Below, one piece after another: positions 1,413-46,434 of a stretch of 64,000 nucleotides of DNA. Every line of letters begins with the position of its first letter. Position 1 is the first letter of the stretch. Under the pieces are notes generated by a model that did no database searches, had not been told where the DNA came from, and saw only the letters and a list, made by a program, of their open reading frames with translations. The position numbers were made by a program, and so were the translations under genes. Source of the DNA: Cystobacter ferrugineus (GTDB lineage Bacteria; Myxococcota; Myxococcia; Myxococcales; Myxococcaceae); assembly GCF_001887355.1 (NCBI RefSeq), contig NZ_MPIN01000002.1, positions 558,001 to 622,000 of the forward strand, read 5' to 3'.

Positions 1413-3281
1413 TCAAACCGGTTGCATTGGGGACTTTGTTCCCGCAGGAAGGTGGGTTTCCTCTTCCACCCGTTTCTTGAGGGCCAGCAGCTCCATGCGC
1501 TGGGCGAAGAGCTGTTTGGCCTCCTCGGACAGGTCCATGGCGCCGGCGGTCTGGGCCGTCACGCGGCCGATGTAGTCCAGCTGGAGCTTGATCCGGCGCA
1601 GCATGATGGAGCGGCACACCTGGAGGAAGTAGTGCTCTAGGGCGGACCCCTGCAGGGAGGCGAGCTGGCGCATGGCGGCTTCCACGGCCCGTTTGACGAG
1701 ATCGGGGGCCTCGAACAGGGCGTCCTCGGCCCCATGGCCAGAGGTAGCGTGGGCGAGGACCAGCCGCAACCCGGAGTGGGACAGCTCGTCATGGACGCGG
1801 AAGGTGTCGCGGGCGATGAGCCGGGGCTCGCGCAGGATGACGGCGACGTAGAGCGCCTCCAGGGAGTCCGGGGGTTTGGCGGGTGGGGGGCGCTGGGCGG
1901 GGGCACCCGGAGGGGGTGCCCGGCCCGGGGGCGGGGCGCGGCCGGGAGCGGGGCCCGGACGGCCGGAGGGAGCCGCCCGGGGCGCCTGGGGAGCGGGAGG
2001 GGGAGGCGCCTTGGAGCGCAGCGCGGACTCCAGCTCGGCGGCGGGCAGGCCGCACCAGGCGCTCAGTGCGGCGAAGAAGGCCGAGCGCACCAGCCCCACC
2101 GGGAGCTGCGCCGACACGGGCTTGAGCCGCTCGAGCGCGGCCATCTTCTCCTCGAAGCTGGCCTCCTTGCCCTGGGGCAGGACGGTGGAGAAGACGTGGG
2201 CGGTGAGGGGCCGGGCCTCGTTGAGCAGCCGCTCCAGGCCGGCGGTGCCCTCGCGGCGGATGAAGGTGTCGGGATCGTCCCCCGTGGGCAGCAGGGCCAC
2301 CTTGGCGGCGGCTCCCGCGGCGAGCAAGGGGCCAGCCAGGCGCTCCACGGCCGCCAGGCCCGCCTGGTCTCCGTCCAACAGGAGGAAGAGCTCCCGGGCC
2401 TCGGCGCGGCCGAGCGCCTTGAGGTGCCCCGGGGTGAGGGCGGTGGAGCACAGGGCCACGGTGTGCTTCACCCCTTCCTGGTGCAGGGCGATGCAGTCGA
2501 AGTAGCCCTCCACGAGCACGGCGGCCTTGCGGCGGCGGATCTCATCGCGCGCCTGATCCATGCCGAAGAGCGTCTCGCTCTTGTTGTAGAGCCGGGACTC
2601 GCGGGAGTTGAGGTACTTGGGGCCCTCGTCCGAGCCCACCAGCCGGGCGCCGAAGGCGATGGGGCGGCCCTCGGGGGCGCGGATGGGGATGATGAGGCGG
2701 CCGCGGAAGAAGTCGTAGTAGCCCTCGCCCTTCTGGCGCCGGTTGACGAGGCCCGCATTCAGGCCCCATTCCACCATGCCCGCCTGGGTGAGCTTGTCCG
2801 CGAGCGACGACCACGCGTCCGGCGCCCACCCGAGGCCGAACGCCCGGGCGGTCTCCTCGGAGATGCCGCGGCTGGCGAGGTAGTCGCGCGCCGGACGTCC
2901 TTCCTCCTCCCACAGGAGCGCCCGGAAGTGCTCGGCGGCGAGGTCCGTGGCCTCCTTGAGCTGCTGCCGTTCCCGGGCGGCGGGGTCCTGCGCGGCCTCC
3001 AGGTCCACGCCCACCTCGCGCGCCAGGTCGCGGATGGCGTCGATGAACGTCTTGCCCAGGTAGCGCTGGACGAAGGCCACGGCGTCGCCGCTGGCCCGGC
3101 ACCCGTGGCAGAAGTAGAAGCGCTTCTCGGGGATGACGTAGAAGGAGGGGGTCTTCTCCTGGTGGAAGGGGCAGCGGCCCTTGTACTCGCGCCCGGCCTT
3201 CTTCAGCTCCACGTAGCGCGAGACGAGGCTCACCAGATCCACCCGCTCGAGGACTTCCTGAATCTTGTGCTCGGGGATCAC
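1413..3281 (-). CDS. dnaG: DNA primase
   Basis: DnaG makes the RNA primers for replication at the fork. From the chosen start the protein is about 622 residues, normal for the family. The N-terminal CHC2 zinc site is visible as Cys37, His40, Cys58 and Cys61 (CPFH, FCHGC). The TOPRIM core follows, with VLVEGYFD and LLLDGDQAG. A Pro-rich linker leads to the helicase-binding C-terminal domain. I chose the GTG at 3279-3281, which begins the family-typical IPEHKIQEVLERVDLV, because AAGGGG sits 8 nt upstream. An ATG at 3318-3320 would add 13 residues. It is third in the macromolecular-synthesis operon. Confidence 0.95.
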   Translation of the reverse strand: MIPEHKIQEVLERVDLVSLVSRYVELKKAGREYKGRCPFHQEKTPSFYVIPEKRFYFCHGCRASGDAVAFVQRYLGKTFIDAIRDLAREVGVDLEAAQDPAARERQQLKEATDLAAEHFRALLWEEEGRPARDYLASRGISEETARAFGLGWAPDAWSSLADKLTQAGMVEWGLNAGLVNRRQKGEGYYDFFRGRLIIPIRAPEGRPIAFGARLVGSDEGPKYLNSRESRLYNKSETLFGMDQARDEIRRRKAAVLVEGYFDCIALHQEGVKHTVALCSTALTPGHLKALGRAEARELFLLLDGDQAGLAAVERLAGPLLAAGAAAKVALLPTGDDPDTFIRREGTAGLERLLNEARPLTAHVFSTVLPQGKEASFEEKMAALERLKPVSAQLPVGLVRSAFFAALSAWCGLPAAELESALRSKAPPPPAPQAPRAAPSGRPGPAPGRAPPPGRAPPPGAPAQRPPPAKPPDSLEALYVAVILREPRLIARDTFRVHDELSHSGLRLVLAHATSGHGAEDALFEAPDLVKRAVEAAMRQLASLQGSALEHYFLQVCRSIMLRRIKLQLDYIGRVTAQTAGAMDLSEEAKQLFAQRMELLALKKRVEEETHLPAGTKSPMQPV

Positions 3282-40806: not shown

Positions 40807-42684
40807 TCACTCCACTCGGATGCTCGTCCAGGGCTCGTAGAGCACCAGGCCCTTCGGCCCGCGCAGCCCCATCTGGTACCAGAGCACGTCGCGCGACAGC
40901 TTCGCGCGATCGCGCCCGAGGGACTCGCCGCAGTCGAAGGGTCCATCGAACGTCTGGAGCCGTGATTTCTCATTCGCGCGGAAGCGGCAGACCACCCGCC
41001 ATCCCTCGGGCGGCGGCGTGTCCAGCACGGGCCGCAGGAGCACCTCGTGCTCGGTGGGTTCCACGGCCGCGCGGGGACGGGGGAGTGACGTGATCAGCTC
41101 TTGATGGCGCGCCACCTGCTCGTCCAGCGAGGCGAAGAAGTCATCGAACACCTGGGACAGATCGATGCCCGCCGTCTGGAACGCGTCCTGCCAGAGCAGG
41201 GCCTCCTGGAGACCCTCGGGGGCATCCTTCCTCCCGAGCGCCGCGAGCACGCGTGCCGGAGCGCCGTCCCCGTGCCGCCGAACCAACGCCTCGACGAAGG
41301 CGCGTCCGAGCGGATACACCCAGTTCGCGTCCCGCTCGGCCGCGAGCCTGTCGGGAGCGAGCAACTCCTCGGTCTTCACCTCGCGCCGGGCGCGGGCGGT
41401 GGCGGCGAGCCAGTGGTACTCCTCCAGCGCGTCGGGTGGGCGGAAGAAGCGGTACTCCACGTAGGTGGCGAGTCCCTCGGCGAACAGGTGCATGTCGGCC
41501 AGGTGGGGAGTGGCCTCCGGTCCCACGATGCGCTGGGAGAGCACGTGCGTCGTCTCGTGTCCGAGCACGGCGAGCGCTTCCTCGTCGGAGGAGAGGTTCT
41601 CGAGGCCCATGCGCAACGTGTTCCAGTAGGCCGTGCCCGCCGTGTGCCGCATGCTTCCACCGAGGTCCGCGCGGAGGGGCTCGCCCGAGTCGACTCCCAG
41701 GAAGGCGCGCACCTTCTCGAAGGAGGCGTCGGCTCCCCGCAGGAGGGGCTCGGCGCGCTGGCGCAGGCTGGCGGGGTAGGTGAACTGGTAGTGCCGGGTG
41801 TCGGCCTGGGCGCTGGCGCTGGTGGGGAACTCCACCCGGACCTCCTCGCCGCTCGTGGCCGTCTCGTCATCGGCGCCTCCCCAGCGCATGAACACCGCGA
41901 AGAACAGTCCCACGGTGGTGACGGAGGCCAGCACCCCCAGCCAGGAGCCCTGGAGCCGCTGTTGCGCGGCGGCGAGCAGCCGCTCTCCCCAGCCGAGGAA
42001 CTGCGCCAGGGCGAGGGCGAGCAGGGCCGCGGTGACGGAGAGCTGGAGGAGCAGGGCCTCCACGGGCCAGCGCCAGTGGTTTCCCTCGAACACGGGCGCG
42101 GTGAGGCGGAGCGGGTTGAGGGCGGACCACCAGGGGGCCCGGTCCTCGAGCAGGCCCTGGGCGAGCATCAGCACGGCGAGCAGGGTCCAACACAGCCGGC
42201 GCAAGGGAGCCAGGGCCAGGCCGAGGGCGAGCACGGAGAGCGCCTGCACGACGCGCAGCACGATCGCCATGCCGATGACGTCCAGGTGCAGGCCGGGCTC
42301 GAGCGAGGTGCGTGACAGGGCCTGTTCGAGAAGCGTCCAGGCCGTCATCCCGAGCGGGTACACGAGCACGGTGGCGAGCGCGACGAGCACCTTGATCCAG
42401 AAGAGCGTCCAGCGCGAGGTGGGCAGGGCGTCGAGGAACTCCAACGTGCGGTCGTCCTGTTCCCGCACGAGCAGCCCGCTGCCGAGCGCGAAGGCGAGGA
42501 GGAAGGTGAGCACGGACAGGTCATCGTCCGGCTCGAAGCGCTCCGGGAGACTCACCGCGTAGGGGGAGAAGCCCAGGGGCGCCTCCCACAGCGCGGAGAG
42601 CACGTTGAGCAGGAGGAGGAAGAGCGCGAGCCCGAGGAACGGCCGTTGATCGCGCGCTTCCTTGGCGACGAGGGGGCGGATCAT
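40807..42684 (-). CDS. ABC-2 permease fused to a gluzincin-type metallopeptidase
   Basis: A 625-residue protein. Residues 1-270 are an ABC-2-type membrane domain with about six helices (LGLALFLLLLNVLSALW; VLVALATVLVYPLGMTAW; LLLQLSVTAALLALALAQFL; SVTTVGLFFAVFMRW). Residues 290-570 form a peptidase-MA/M1-like domain: His376-Glu377-x-x-His380 in LGHETTHVL, with the third ligand Glu403 in LFAEGLATYVEY, spacing as in gluzincins. The ABC ATPase at 44525 and the paralogous permease at 42681 complete the transporter. The peptidase should face outside and may process the exported substrate (inference). It overlaps the previous gene by 4 nt. Confidence 0.85.
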   Translation of the reverse strand: MIRPLVAKEARDQRPFLGLALFLLLLNVLSALWEAPLGFSPYAVSLPERFEPDDDLSVLTFLLAFALGSGLLVREQDDRTLEFLDALPTSRWTLFWIKVLVALATVLVYPLGMTAWTLLEQALSRTSLEPGLHLDVIGMAIVLRVVQALSVLALGLALAPLRRLCWTLLAVLMLAQGLLEDRAPWWSALNPLRLTAPVFEGNHWRWPVEALLLQLSVTAALLALALAQFLGWGERLLAAAQQRLQGSWLGVLASVTTVGLFFAVFMRWGGADDETATSGEEVRVEFPTSASAQADTRHYQFTYPASLRQRAEPLLRGADASFEKVRAFLGVDSGEPLRADLGGSMRHTAGTAYWNTLRMGLENLSSDEEALAVLGHETTHVLSQRIVGPEATPHLADMHLFAEGLATYVEYRFFRPPDALEEYHWLAATARARREVKTEELLAPDRLAAERDANWVYPLGRAFVEALVRRHGDGAPARVLAALGRKDAPEGLQEALLWQDAFQTAGIDLSQVFDDFFASLDEQVARHQELITSLPRPRAAVEPTEHEVLLRPVLDTPPPEGWRVVCRFRANEKSRLQTFDGPFDCGESLGRDRAKLSRDVLWYQMGLRGPKGLVLYEPWTSIRVE

Positions 42685-44528
42685 CGGATCTCCCGGCGCT
42701 GCGCGAGCAGGCGGATGGGGCACCCGAGCGCCTCGGAGTCCACCTGCACCACGAAGAGCCACCGGGCTCCCCGGGAAAGGCCCAGGGGCAGCCTCGCCCC
42801 CGTGCCAGACACCACGTCCTGCCGGGAGAGGGCATGCGCGGGCACCTCGTTCTCGAAGGGCTCCAGCTCATGGTGGAGCAGGGCGTAGGGGGGAGGCGGG
42901 GCCCCGGTGCTCGTCCGGAGTTCGTGTTCCAGGCGGAAGGTCCGCGCCGACTCCGCCACCAGGGTGAGGGTTGGCTGGAGCCGGGTCAGGGGCTCGAGCA
43001 TGTCCGTGTGAGCCTCGCGATCCCGCCGCAGCGCCTCGCGCCAGAAGCCCGCCAGCTCGTCCACGGAGGGCCCATCGCGATGGGCCAGCAGCTCGGCCAG
43101 CCGGGGCTCCCGCCACAGGCCCCAGAATCCCGTGCCCTCGGGGATGACGAGCACGCGGCGCATCAGCTCCTGGAAGGCGGATTGCCCGAGCCGGTGCCGC
43201 AGCACCTGGAGGCCCCGGGCGCCCAGCGCTCCCGACAGACAGGGGCCGAGGCGCTCGCGCGTGGTCAACCAGTGCTTCTCCTCGAAGTCCTCCCGGGACG
43301 CCACGGCGGCGCGCGCGGGCAGGGGTTCGGCGCCTGTCTGATTCACCCACCAGGTGGTGAAGCCGTCGAGCAGCCACTGGCGCTCCTCGCGCAGCACGCG
43401 GCCCTGGCTGGCTTCGATGAGCACTTCCCGGAAGAGGAAGGACTCGAAGGCGAGCGGATCGAAGTCCGGGGCCGCGAGGTTCGCCCGGACGACGACGCCA
43501 TCGGCCTTCTCCAGCTCCGCGCGCTGGAACACGTCGGCATCGAGCTCGAGGATGGGCAGCACCGCCACGGGGGGAAGCTGTTCGAGCCCCAGGAAGTCAC
43601 TCATGGTGCCCAGGTCCGCGGCGAGCCGCTCCGCGAACAGCCGGGCTCGCTCCGGGGGAAAGCCCACCCCGGAGGCCACCTGGAGCGACGAGGACTTCAC
43701 CGGCGCCCGCTCCGCCTCGCTCAGGGCGAAGGGCTTGCGTTGGTTCGCCTCGTCCCAGGTGGCCACGCACACGAAGAGCCCGACGAGGAGGCAGGCGATG
43801 AAGACCTTCTCCCGGTGGCTCATCCGCTGGGAGAGCAGCTCGGCCAGGGTTCCATCCCGGTAGAGCACGAGCCCGAAGCCCGCGCCGACCAGGGCGCCCG
43901 AGAGCGCCCAGCAGGTGAGCAGATCCTTCCAGGGCACGCGGTGGCGCTCGAAGGCGAAGTCCGAGCCGAGCAGGGCGAAGGGCCCCCAGCGCGAGAGGTC
44001 GAAGTCGGTGAGGTGATCCGCCGCGAAGAGGGCGATGAGGAGGAAGAGATAGAGGGGGTTGCGGTAGCGGCCGAGCAGTCCGGCGAGGGCGAAGAAGCAC
44101 CAGCCCAGCAGCACCGGAGTGGATGCGCGCGTGAGCAGCAGCAGCACGAAGCGGCCGGAGATGGACTCGTGCGCTCGGGCCTGGTTCCACAGGAGCAGCA
44201 AGCTCAGCACGAGCGGTGGCAGCAACGCCGCGGTGCCCAGGACGAGCTTGGTGGCGAGCACGCGGGCGCGCGAGACGGGGAGGACCTCGAGGAAGAGCTG
44301 GGTGCGCTGGCCGTACTCGTGGACGATCAGCCGGTGGGCGACGAAGAGCGCGCCGCCACTGGCGAGCAGCAGGGTGGGGCTCTTGAGCAAGGCGAAGAAG
44401 CTGCCCTGTTCGGCGAAGGCTTCCTGGCCCTGCCACACCACGAGCAGCATGGCGGCGACGAGCAACTGGAGCAGCAGCCAGGCGCCGCGATGCTCGCGCC
44501 ACTCCTTGCGCACCAGGGCCAGGCTCAT
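42681..44528 (-). CDS. ABC-2 permease with a dead metallopeptidase-like domain
   Basis: A 615-residue paralogue of the neighbouring permease. The membrane part (1-255) includes GAWLLLQLLVAAMLLVVW, LPPLVLSLLLLW and KVFIACLLVGLFVCVATW. The C-terminal half follows the same peptidase plan, but the HExxH position reads RxxxI: Arg367-Glu368-Val-Leu-Ile371 in FLFREVLIEASQ, and the third-ligand block LLDGFTTWWV has Asp for Glu. It is therefore unlikely to cut. It likely pairs with the 40807 product as a heterodimer. It overlaps both the ATPase gene and the next permease by 4 nt. Confidence 0.8.
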   Translation of the reverse strand: MSLALVRKEWREHRGAWLLLQLLVAAMLLVVWQGQEAFAEQGSFFALLKSPTLLLASGGALFVAHRLIVHEYGQRTQLFLEVLPVSRARVLATKLVLGTAALLPPLVLSLLLLWNQARAHESISGRFVLLLLTRASTPVLLGWCFFALAGLLGRYRNPLYLFLLIALFAADHLTDFDLSRWGPFALLGSDFAFERHRVPWKDLLTCWALSGALVGAGFGLVLYRDGTLAELLSQRMSHREKVFIACLLVGLFVCVATWDEANQRKPFALSEAERAPVKSSSLQVASGVGFPPERARLFAERLAADLGTMSDFLGLEQLPPVAVLPILELDADVFQRAELEKADGVVVRANLAAPDFDPLAFESFLFREVLIEASQGRVLREERQWLLDGFTTWWVNQTGAEPLPARAAVASREDFEEKHWLTTRERLGPCLSGALGARGLQVLRHRLGQSAFQELMRRVLVIPEGTGFWGLWREPRLAELLAHRDGPSVDELAGFWREALRRDREAHTDMLEPLTRLQPTLTLVAESARTFRLEHELRTSTGAPPPPYALLHHELEPFENEVPAHALSRQDVVSGTGARLPLGLSRGARWLFVVQVDSEALGCPIRLLAQRREIR

Positions 44529-45403
44529 GGTTCGTCCGAGCGCCGGGCGTAGGCGAGGAAGATGTCCTCGAGCGAGAGCCGCTGGACGGTCTCCGGAGCG
44601 AGGGATGCGGTGTCCCAGTCCGTGGGCGCGCCGAAGAGGACGACGGCCACGCGCCCATCGGGCAGGTGCTCGCGCCTGACGAGCGAGAGGCCCGGGGGGA
44701 GGGGGGCGGTGGTGGAGTCCAGGAGCACGCGCCGGACGGACTGGCGCAGGGTGTCCAGGCTCCCCTGGAAGCGCAGCCGGCCCTCGTGGAGGATGCCGAT
44801 GCGGTGCGCCACTTCCTCCACCTCGCCGACGAGGTGCGAGGAGAAGAGCACCGTCTGGCCCTCGCGCCGCACCTGGTCGCGCAGGATGTCGAGGAACTCC
44901 CTGCGGGCCACCGGATCCATCCCGGCGGTGGGCTCATCGAGCAGCAGCAGGGGCGGGTGGTGGGCCAGCGCGAGCGCCAGCCCCAGCTTCATCCTCGTCC
45001 CACCGGAGAGCTGCGCGGCCTTGCGGTCCTCGGGGACGTCGAGCACCCGGAGCAGCCGCCGGAACTCCTCGTCACTCCAACGGGGATAGAAGCCGGAGAC
45101 GAACGCGCCCAGTTCGCGCGCGGTCATCCAGGGGTAGAAGACCTGCTCCTGCGACACGTAGCCGAGCTGCCGCTTCTGGGCGCTTCCCACGCGGCGCACG
45201 CGCTGGCCCATCAGCTCGATGTGGCCCCGGTCCGGGCGCAGGATGCCCATGAGCATCCGCAGCGTGGTCGTCTTGCCCGCGCCATTGCGTCCCAGGAATC
45301 CGTAGACCTCACCCCGGCGCAGCTCCAGGTCCACGCCCTCCACGGCCGCCACCTTGTGGAACAGGCGGCTGAGCCCGTGGGTGCGCAGGATGATCTCGGA
45401 CAT
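44525..45403 (-). CDS. ABC transporter ATP-binding protein
   Basis: A 292-residue ATPase of the ABC-2 exporter type. Walker A GRNGAGKTTTLR, Q-loop YVSQEQ, signature LSGGTRMKLGLAL, Walker B LLLLDEPTAGMDPVA and the H-loop SSHLVGEVEE are all intact. The Gly in LSGGTRM is followed by Thr, as in many drug/lipid exporters. It drives the two permease-peptidase proteins encoded next. One base separates it from doxX upstream. Confidence 0.93.
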   Translation of the reverse strand: MSEIILRTHGLSRLFHKVAAVEGVDLELRRGEVYGFLGRNGAGKTTTLRMLMGILRPDRGHIELMGQRVRRVGSAQKRQLGYVSQEQVFYPWMTARELGAFVSGFYPRWSDEEFRRLLRVLDVPEDRKAAQLSGGTRMKLGLALALAHHPPLLLLDEPTAGMDPVARREFLDILRDQVRREGQTVLFSSHLVGEVEEVAHRIGILHEGRLRFQGSLDTLRQSVRRVLLDSTTAPLPPGLSLVRREHLPDGRVAVVLFGAPTDWDTASLAPETVQRLSLEDIFLAYARRSDEP

Positions 45404-45404
45404 G

Positions 45405-45803
45405 TCAGAAGGGGCGGCGGCGCATCTTCGCATCGACGCTCAGGGGCCCTCCGCCGATGAACACGGCCGCGAGGAATACCGCGAGGTAGAGCACCGCCAG
45501 CTCCATGCGCCCGAAGGCATCCATGCGGTGCTGATAGAGGGCCACTCCCATGGTGCAGGCCACGAAGAAGGCCGCGAGCCGGGTGAAGAGCCCCAGCGCC
45601 ACCAGGAGCCCGCCCACCAGCTCGGACAGCGCCGCGGCCCAGGCGAAGTAGAGCGGGTAGGGGAAGCCCAGCGCCTCCACGCCCTGGGCGAAGCGGCTCA
45701 TGTCACCCGTCACCTTGGGCAACCCATGGGCGAACGCCAATGAGAGTCCGAACACCACCCGTACCAGCGTCCAGCCCAGCGTGGATCCACGTGAAGCGTT
45801 CAT
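45405..45803 (-). CDS. DoxX family membrane protein
   Basis: A 132-residue protein with four membrane helices, DoxX type: RVVFGLSLAFAHGLPKVTG, FAWAAALSELVGGLLVALGL, FFVACTMGVALYQHRM, ELAVLYLAVFLAAVFIGGG. DoxX-like proteins are linked to redox or membrane stress but the exact role varies. It is the first gene of the doxX-ABC-permease-permease unit. Its start follows GAGGTGAAGG. Confidence 0.88.
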   Translation of the reverse strand: MNASRGSTLGWTLVRVVFGLSLAFAHGLPKVTGDMSRFAQGVEALGFPYPLYFAWAAALSELVGGLLVALGLFTRLAAFFVACTMGVALYQHRMDAFGRMELAVLYLAVFLAAVFIGGGPLSVDAKMRRRPF

Positions 45804-45975: not shown

Positions 45976-46434
45976 CTAGTCCCGTCGTACCTCGAAGGCG
46001 GAGGAGACGTAGCCAGCGTCGGTCTGGATGTAGGTTATGGTCGCCCCGTTCTTCGTGACGAAGAAGTCGAAGTGCGTCGTGTCTCCGCTGTTGTCGATGA
46101 TCGTCATGGTGCCGCTACAGTCGGCATCGAGGGTGTAGGTGCCAGAGTAGGCGCTGCGCGTGATCTCACCATTGGTACTGTCGGTCGCCCAACCGGTAAG
46201 GGTCCCGTCCCCGGGGAAGAAATCATGACCGGCCTCTGCGAAGGGGATCTGCTCGGACCCCCTCACGATGTACCCATCGGTGGCATAGACGTAGTGGCCC
46301 TTCAGCATGCTCGGCTTGCATTGGGAAATCATCGAAGGCTCCGCCGCGGGAGCCTCGCCAGCTGCCTCGTGCGCAACGCCCAGGAGCCCGGCCGTGAGGA
46401 CACTTCCCATGACGTACCATTGGAATCGCTTCAT
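45976..46434 (-). CDS. Small secreted protein of unknown function
   Basis: A 152-residue exported protein: signal YVMGSVLTAGLLGVAHEA, then a mature beta-rich region (MLKGHYVYATDGYIVRGSEQ; YSGTYTLDADCSGTMTIIDN; FFVTKNGATITYIQTDAGYV) with two cysteines. The layout (LKGHYxY and DADCSGT) resembles small secreted lipocalin-like or allene-oxide-cyclase-like beta barrels, but I cannot name the family. GC content is lower than that of its neighbours. A 7-bp hairpin stands near the ribosome binding site. Confidence 0.6.
   Translation of the reverse strand: MKRFQWYVMGSVLTAGLLGVAHEAAGEAPAAEPSMISQCKPSMLKGHYVYATDGYIVRGSEQIPFAEAGHDFFPGDGTLTGWATDSTNGEITRSAYSGTYTLDADCSGTMTIIDNSGDTTHFDFFVTKNGATITYIQTDAGYVSSAFEVRRD

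Follow-up and report, generated by a model that had tools for sequence, protein, structure and literature searches.

How can a transport system carry two domains of one peptidase fold, one apparently active and the other dead, and what would such a system do? The question is raised by three genes in a 64,000-nucleotide stretch of the Cystobacter ferrugineus genome (contig NZ_MPIN01000002.1, positions 558,001 to 622,000; hereafter the window, in which all positions are counted), namely, the ATP-binding cassette (ABC) ATPase gene and the two downstream genes designated A and B here. Sequence comparison and structure prediction make it very probable that the three encode a two-chain ABC-2 permease with an extracytoplasmic pair of gluzincin domains, one active and one dead, served by a single ATPase gene. 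This is essentially the arrangement proposed in the initial annotation, which is now backed by fold matches and gene co-occurrence, with A and B presumably assembling as a heterodimer.

40807-42684, minus strand: gene A (625 amino acids [aa], ATG at 42684), ABC-2 permease half with a predicted extracytoplasmic gluzincin peptidase-like domain
42681-44528, minus strand: gene B (615 aa), ABC-2 permease half with a predicted degenerate gluzincin-fold ectodomain
44525-45403, minus strand: ABC ATPase gene (ATG at 45403, stop at 44525), predicted driver of the A/B permease pair

The genes are arranged in the order ATPase, B, A, with ATGA overlaps at both junctions, and A is present in one copy in the genome. 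The ATPase matches Pfam family PF00005 (E 4e-31), and its translation contains intact Walker A (GRNGAGKTT), signature (LSGGT), Walker B (LLLLDEPTAGMD), and H-loop (SSH) motifs; the exporter ATPases PmtA and DrrA resemble it, with matches below the cut-offs. A second in-frame ATG at 45433, upstream of the assigned start, would lead to an overlap with the preceding gene, doxX.

A conserved and a lost zinc-protease motif

The features of A and B on which the argument depends are the following:

41950-42684, minus strand: predicted membrane domain of A, residues 1-245, six transmembrane helices of the ABC-2/type V fold (ABC2_membrane_2/4 in 13/13 orthologues)
41881-41943, minus strand: predicted seventh transmembrane helix of A, residues 248-268 (247-270 in the model), leading out of the membrane
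41545-41559, minus strand: HETTH zinc-protease motif of A, residues 376-380 (H376, E377, H380)
41476-41478, minus strand: E403 of A (EGLA), predicted third zinc ligand, 22 residues past HETTH
41314-41316, minus strand: Y457 of A (YPLG), candidate transition-state tyrosine
43416-43430, minus strand: REVLI of B, residues R367-I371, where HExxH would stand
43365-43367, minus strand: D388 of B (DGF 388-390, within DGFTTWW), at the putative third-ligand position

The residue numbers and coordinates of the initial annotation (H376, E377, H380, and E403 in A; RExxI and DGF in B) agree with the translations. All aligned A orthologues (13/13) share HET[TSA]H, the EG pair, and Y457 without exception, and two distant A proteins from two further families of the phylum have HETAH and HELVH with an unchanged x22 spacing to the glutamate. 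The role of Y457 is suggested by analogy with the tyrosine of the M1 motif YxKG. The mean pairwise identity in A is higher for the peptidase domain (0.51) than for the membrane half (0.45).

A search for HExxH in B gave 0/13 orthologues and none of the B proteins of the two other families. The second histidine and the third-ligand glutamate are replaced throughout, and the substitutes for HExxH vary by branch, i.e., REVLI in the clade of the window and HSII-, HAVV-, or HELL-type sequences elsewhere. The DG of DGF is nearly invariant in B, and its assignment to the third-ligand position follows the register of the profile alignment. Since HExxH is always missing and the ectodomain is about as conserved as the membrane half (mean pairwise identity of 0.42 for both), B is, as far as its sequences tell, a pseudo-peptidase that has been maintained rather than a recent pseudogene. 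Among the aligned pairs, which come from Myxococcota and one gammaproteobacterium, every A keeps HExxH-x22-E and HExxH occurs in no B. An invariant catalytic set in A combined with the lack of HExxH in all B proteins is not a chance pattern. Such a split into a live and a dead partner allows the roles of catalysis and of the pseudoenzyme to be separated genetically.

Predicted structure and topology

AlphaFold models of A and B were built from 13-row alignments and reached a mean pLDDT (predicted local distance difference test) of 78.7 for A, with ectodomain blocks mostly at 85 to 97, and of 80.1 for B, with a well-predicted ectodomain; loops were weaker in both. In its membrane half, A resembles NosY (Z 17.3, 222 residues, 3.3 Å), and B resembles the Rv1217c-1218c pump (Z 17.0), NosY (Z 16.3), and PmtCD (Z 14.5). 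For the ectodomain of A, the fold matches are lugdulysin (M30; Z 14.6), M1 aminopeptidases (Z ~13), and collagenase (M9; Z 12.4), and for that of B, despite the missing zinc site, they are puromycin-sensitive aminopeptidase (Z 13.1) and collagenase and lugdulysin (Z ~12.3). Foldseek alone ranked M1 enzymes at the top for both proteins; overall TM-scores were low, as each model spans a membrane and an ectodomain part. Z values of 12 to 13 call for caution with mostly helical domains, and the weight lies on the fact that the models of A and B converge on the same peptidase folds. Sequence profiles gave no significant peptidase match against PDB chains, and the peptidase-fold assignment is therefore carried by the fold comparison.

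Both proteins are predicted to consist of six ABC-2 helices and a seventh helix, followed by the ectodomain. Lysine and arginine are denser in the predicted inside loops than in the outside loops (~0.21 versus 0.08 per residue in A and ~0.18 versus 0.10 in B). A lone homologue of the A ectodomain (genome G159, L081:4378-6099, minus strand), which covers the C-terminal region of the A profile (E 1.8e-19), starts with a signal-like sequence, followed by HETAH-x22-E and Sel1 repeats; the same genome also has the full cassette. Because of the seven helices, the charge distribution, and this signal-bearing homologue, both ectodomains are predicted to be periplasmic, which places the peptidase domain outside the cytoplasm, as the exporter of the initial annotation would demand.

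The permease halves of A and B are clear paralogues according to the profile comparison (E 1.5e-12), and the paralogy is firm for this part and probable, judging from the models, for the ectodomains. In both models, the two motifs occupy successive helices of one common fold.

Family assignment and closest known systems

With HExxH, a downstream glutamate on the next helix, and a predicted gluzincin fold, A is assigned by motif and model to the gluzincins (clan MA[E]), but not to family M1, to which the initial annotation had likened it. The spacing in A and its distant homologues is x22 versus HExxH-x18-E in M1; the exopeptidase motif GxMEN is absent from the ectodomain alignment, where a conserved GTA[YF] without the glutamate is found upstream of HExxH; and the M1 profile PF01433 has no match in window A and one in 13 orthologues at E 0.23. 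It is the joint failure of spacing, GxMEN, and Pfam profile that places A outside M1. Matches to Peptidase_MA_2 (PF13485; 3/13 A orthologues, best E 0.0018) and M48 (PF01435; 2/13, best E 0.0058) are weak and scattered, and window A stays below both cut-offs. A TPR protein (L084:1022-2542, plus strand) has a weak Peptidase_MA_2 domain resembling the peptidase region of A, and similar weak matches are found throughout the class.

The membrane domains are of the ABC-2/type V kind according to the fold matches and the adjacent ATPase gene. PF12679/PF12730 are detected in 13/13 A and 10-12/13 B orthologues, while window A and B themselves remain under the Pfam cut-offs. No type VII (MacB/FtsX) fold occurs among the structure matches listed, which are ABC-2/type V.

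The closest relatives in design are single-chain, ATPase-linked permease/M1 fusions, e.g., the 1190-aa protein of the congener G002 (G002:C1:10818293-10821862), which has HEVAH and a PF01433 match over the cut-off. Proteins of this kind are annotated by NCBI as 'ABC transporter permease/M1 family aminopeptidase.' Long matches to them are present in many genomes of the class, where transporter-protease fusions outside the C39 type are common. They share with A/B the ATPase gene just upstream, two ABC-2 halves, and one active-looking gluzincin domain after the last transmembrane helix, and the A/B system resembles them in its parts and probably in its topology. However, the fusions combine both halves and a lone M1 domain in one chain, whereas A and B are two chains, each with an ectodomain of its own, of which the second is dead and the active one is non-M1 by motif. 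The A/B system accordingly looks like a split, active/pseudoenzyme variant of the known, though little studied, pump-protease fusion. Mutual exclusion of the two systems was considered and rejected: several Archangium genomes carry both, and they are thus not simple replacements of each other. No paper on the function or substrate of permease/M1 fusions was found, nor one on ABC-2/metallopeptidase pairs like A/B in the literature collection searched, which is incomplete.

Other known systems share single parts. NosDFY has a related ATPase and, in NosY, the type V/ABC-2 fold of A and B, but NosY is not known to carry a peptidase domain, NosD is a protein of its own, and the system handles copper. 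The exporters Rv1217c-1218c and PmtCD, whose ABC-2 fold matches that of B, are not known to have a gluzincin ectodomain, unlike A/B. Conversely, M1 aminopeptidases, lugdulysin, and Vibrio collagenase share the gluzincin fold with the ectodomains (Z 12-14.6), but the solved proteins are not fused to ABC permeases, and the spacing and specificity motifs of M1 differ from those of A. In YbbAP-TesA, an ABC protein is coupled to a periplasmic hydrolase with its active site facing the transporter, but the fold is type VII, the hydrolase is a separate subunit, and the substrates are esters and thioesters (PMC12646458). In PCAT proteins (C39), i.e., peptidase-containing ABC transporters, an N-terminal cytoplasmic cysteine protease is fused to a half-transporter that includes an ATPase domain. 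The A/B system is not of this type, since its predicted zinc gluzincin is C-terminal to an ABC-2 permease and the ATPase is encoded separately.

Distribution and loss of the cassette

Profiles of A and B were searched separately across 147 genomes of the class, and strong matches to both were found in the identical 17/147 genomes, with adjacent genes in 17/17. The pair is thus present and linked in relatives, as the proposal of a functional couple presupposes, and three congeners lack it. Two more families of the phylum also carry A/B pairs (L082 and L083). A and B diverge in step (r 0.99, 11 loci); shared species history contributes to this, and linked inheritance alone could yield the same value. 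The ATPase gene precedes B in 10/11 loci from named genomes in which the upstream side is covered, the exception being L043. In a clustering of the open reading frames around the cassette at 16 loci, the only ones recurring across deep branches were the ATPase, B, and A, together with their antisense shadows. Plasmid-borne copies were looked for, and none were found. A full ATPase-B-A cassette is present in the gammaproteobacterium Steroidobacter agaridevorans (L046:5261-9881), pointing to horizontal transfer or a wider distribution; the occurrence outside Myxococcota is based on one pattern-based scan.

In one of the three congeners without the pair, G002, the whole unit has been cleanly removed, with the following footprint in the window, listed with the neighbouring gene:

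40826-45389, no strand: clean deletion in congener G002 (blastn of the window against L109; flanks adjacent, 95.6-96.3% identity)
45405-45803, minus strand: doxX, directly before the ATPase gene

The G002 sequence jumps from window position 40825 to 45390, leaving a scar at L109 ~3251-3252 and lacking 4,564 bases. At both edges a few bases survive, from the end of A on one side and the start of the ATPase gene on the other, and these remnants point to a deletion in the congener rather than an insertion in the window. Since the block was lost and doxX retained (98% identical), ATPase-B-A appears from this comparison to be one dispensable unit and doxX a separate thing. The natural deletion in a close relative provides a ready comparison.

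The initial annotation had included doxX in the operon, which is true for the window, where 1 nucleotide separates its stop from the ATPase ATG, but the arrangement is not conserved. Among the loci compared, doxX was seen only in the window and in four Archangium-type loci, in which a sigma-70-like gene and a CBS-domain gene lie between doxX and the ATPase gene; the other loci have none in the stretch covered. Lacking near most relatives and kept in G002 after the loss of the cassette, doxX was rejected as a functional part.

Possible mechanisms

The likeliest single mechanism, to which we would give an even chance, is export-coupled cleavage by A, which the B domain would assist by positioning or gating. 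The three genes would be translationally coupled, and two ATPase subunits would power the ABC-2 (type V) heterodimer of A and B, in which the seventh helix of each half would lead to a gluzincin-fold domain in the periplasm. The A domain would act as a zinc endopeptidase-like enzyme (HExxH-x22-E), and the B domain, whose zinc site is lost, as a structural and substrate-positioning partner, resulting in one active site per dimer above the exit. A would cut a peptide or polypeptide as it leaves the permease, and ATP-driven motion would gate access. More tentatively, and at odds somewhat worse than even, A/B may represent a distinct class of ATP-driven periplasmic proteases in which the catalytic and pseudo-peptidase ectodomains form one gated active site and process an exported or membrane-extracted polypeptide. 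If true, ABC-2 proteins would power proteolysis in the periplasm.

Several observations weigh against export-coupled cleavage by an A/B heterodimer. A shared substrate gene was sought in the clustering at the 16 loci, and none was found; the conserved small exported substrate envisaged in the initial annotation is thus missing beside the genes. Some type V ABC proteins, including NosDFY, are not classical exporters. In a metagenome-assembled genome, a B-A pair occurs without an adjacent ATPase gene and with a Ser/Thr protein kinase gene on the opposite strand upstream (L043:4481-7992). Finally, the comparison of the A and B ectodomain profiles is weak (E 0.003, probability 9%), even though its register aligns EGLA with DGF, and the motif spacing is unlike (HExxH-x22-E in A versus REVLI-x16-D in B). 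The earlier claim that the motifs stand at matching places needs this caveat, and the equivalence rests mainly on the predicted structures, in which the motifs occupy successive helices.

Export-coupled cleavage is only weakly set apart from a mechanotransmission protease, in which nothing would be exported and a membrane-associated substrate would be extracted mechanically onto A. This reading is less likely but a serious competitor, the strongest of those considered. NosY is the best permease match of A (Z 17.3), and the NosDFY ATPase works on a partner in the periplasm; the lack of a conserved substrate gene near the cassette would also fit. On the other hand, the best match of B is the drug efflux pump Rv1217c-1218c, whose Z of 17.0 is within 1 of that of NosY, and the peptidase domain would suit either purpose. 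YbbAP-TesA is a precedent for coupling an ABC protein to a periplasmic hydrolase, albeit with the different type VII fold (PMC12646458).

A self-protection or quality-control pump, in which foreign or misfolded peptides of the periplasm or membrane would be bound and degraded by A while the ABC part gives force or expels the fragments, is improbable. The patchy occurrence (17/147), the clean loss in a congener, and the distant gammaproteobacterial carrier could be read as signs of a dispensable defence trait, but patchiness by itself fits many functions, and no resistance or bacteriocin genes are apparent in the neighbourhoods listed. Least credible of all is that A has no protease function in vivo, with a structural, metal-delivery, or sensing zinc at HExxH and two ectodomains that merely bind: B shows that the fold can be kept without catalysis, and the NosDFY relatives handle copper, but the invariance of the catalytic set, including the glutamate base E377 and Y457, in the aligned orthologues and of HExxH-x22-E in distant ones would be unusual for a structural metal site.

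Other genes upstream of the cassette

Upstream of doxX, the window has a gene for a small protein (152 aa) that is predicted to be exported and lacks a Pfam match (45976-46434, minus strand). In two related loci from metagenome-assembled genomes (L039:4291-5301 and L040:4304-5326), a protein of 337-340 aa is encoded just upstream of the ATPase gene; Pfam gave no match for the copy in L039.

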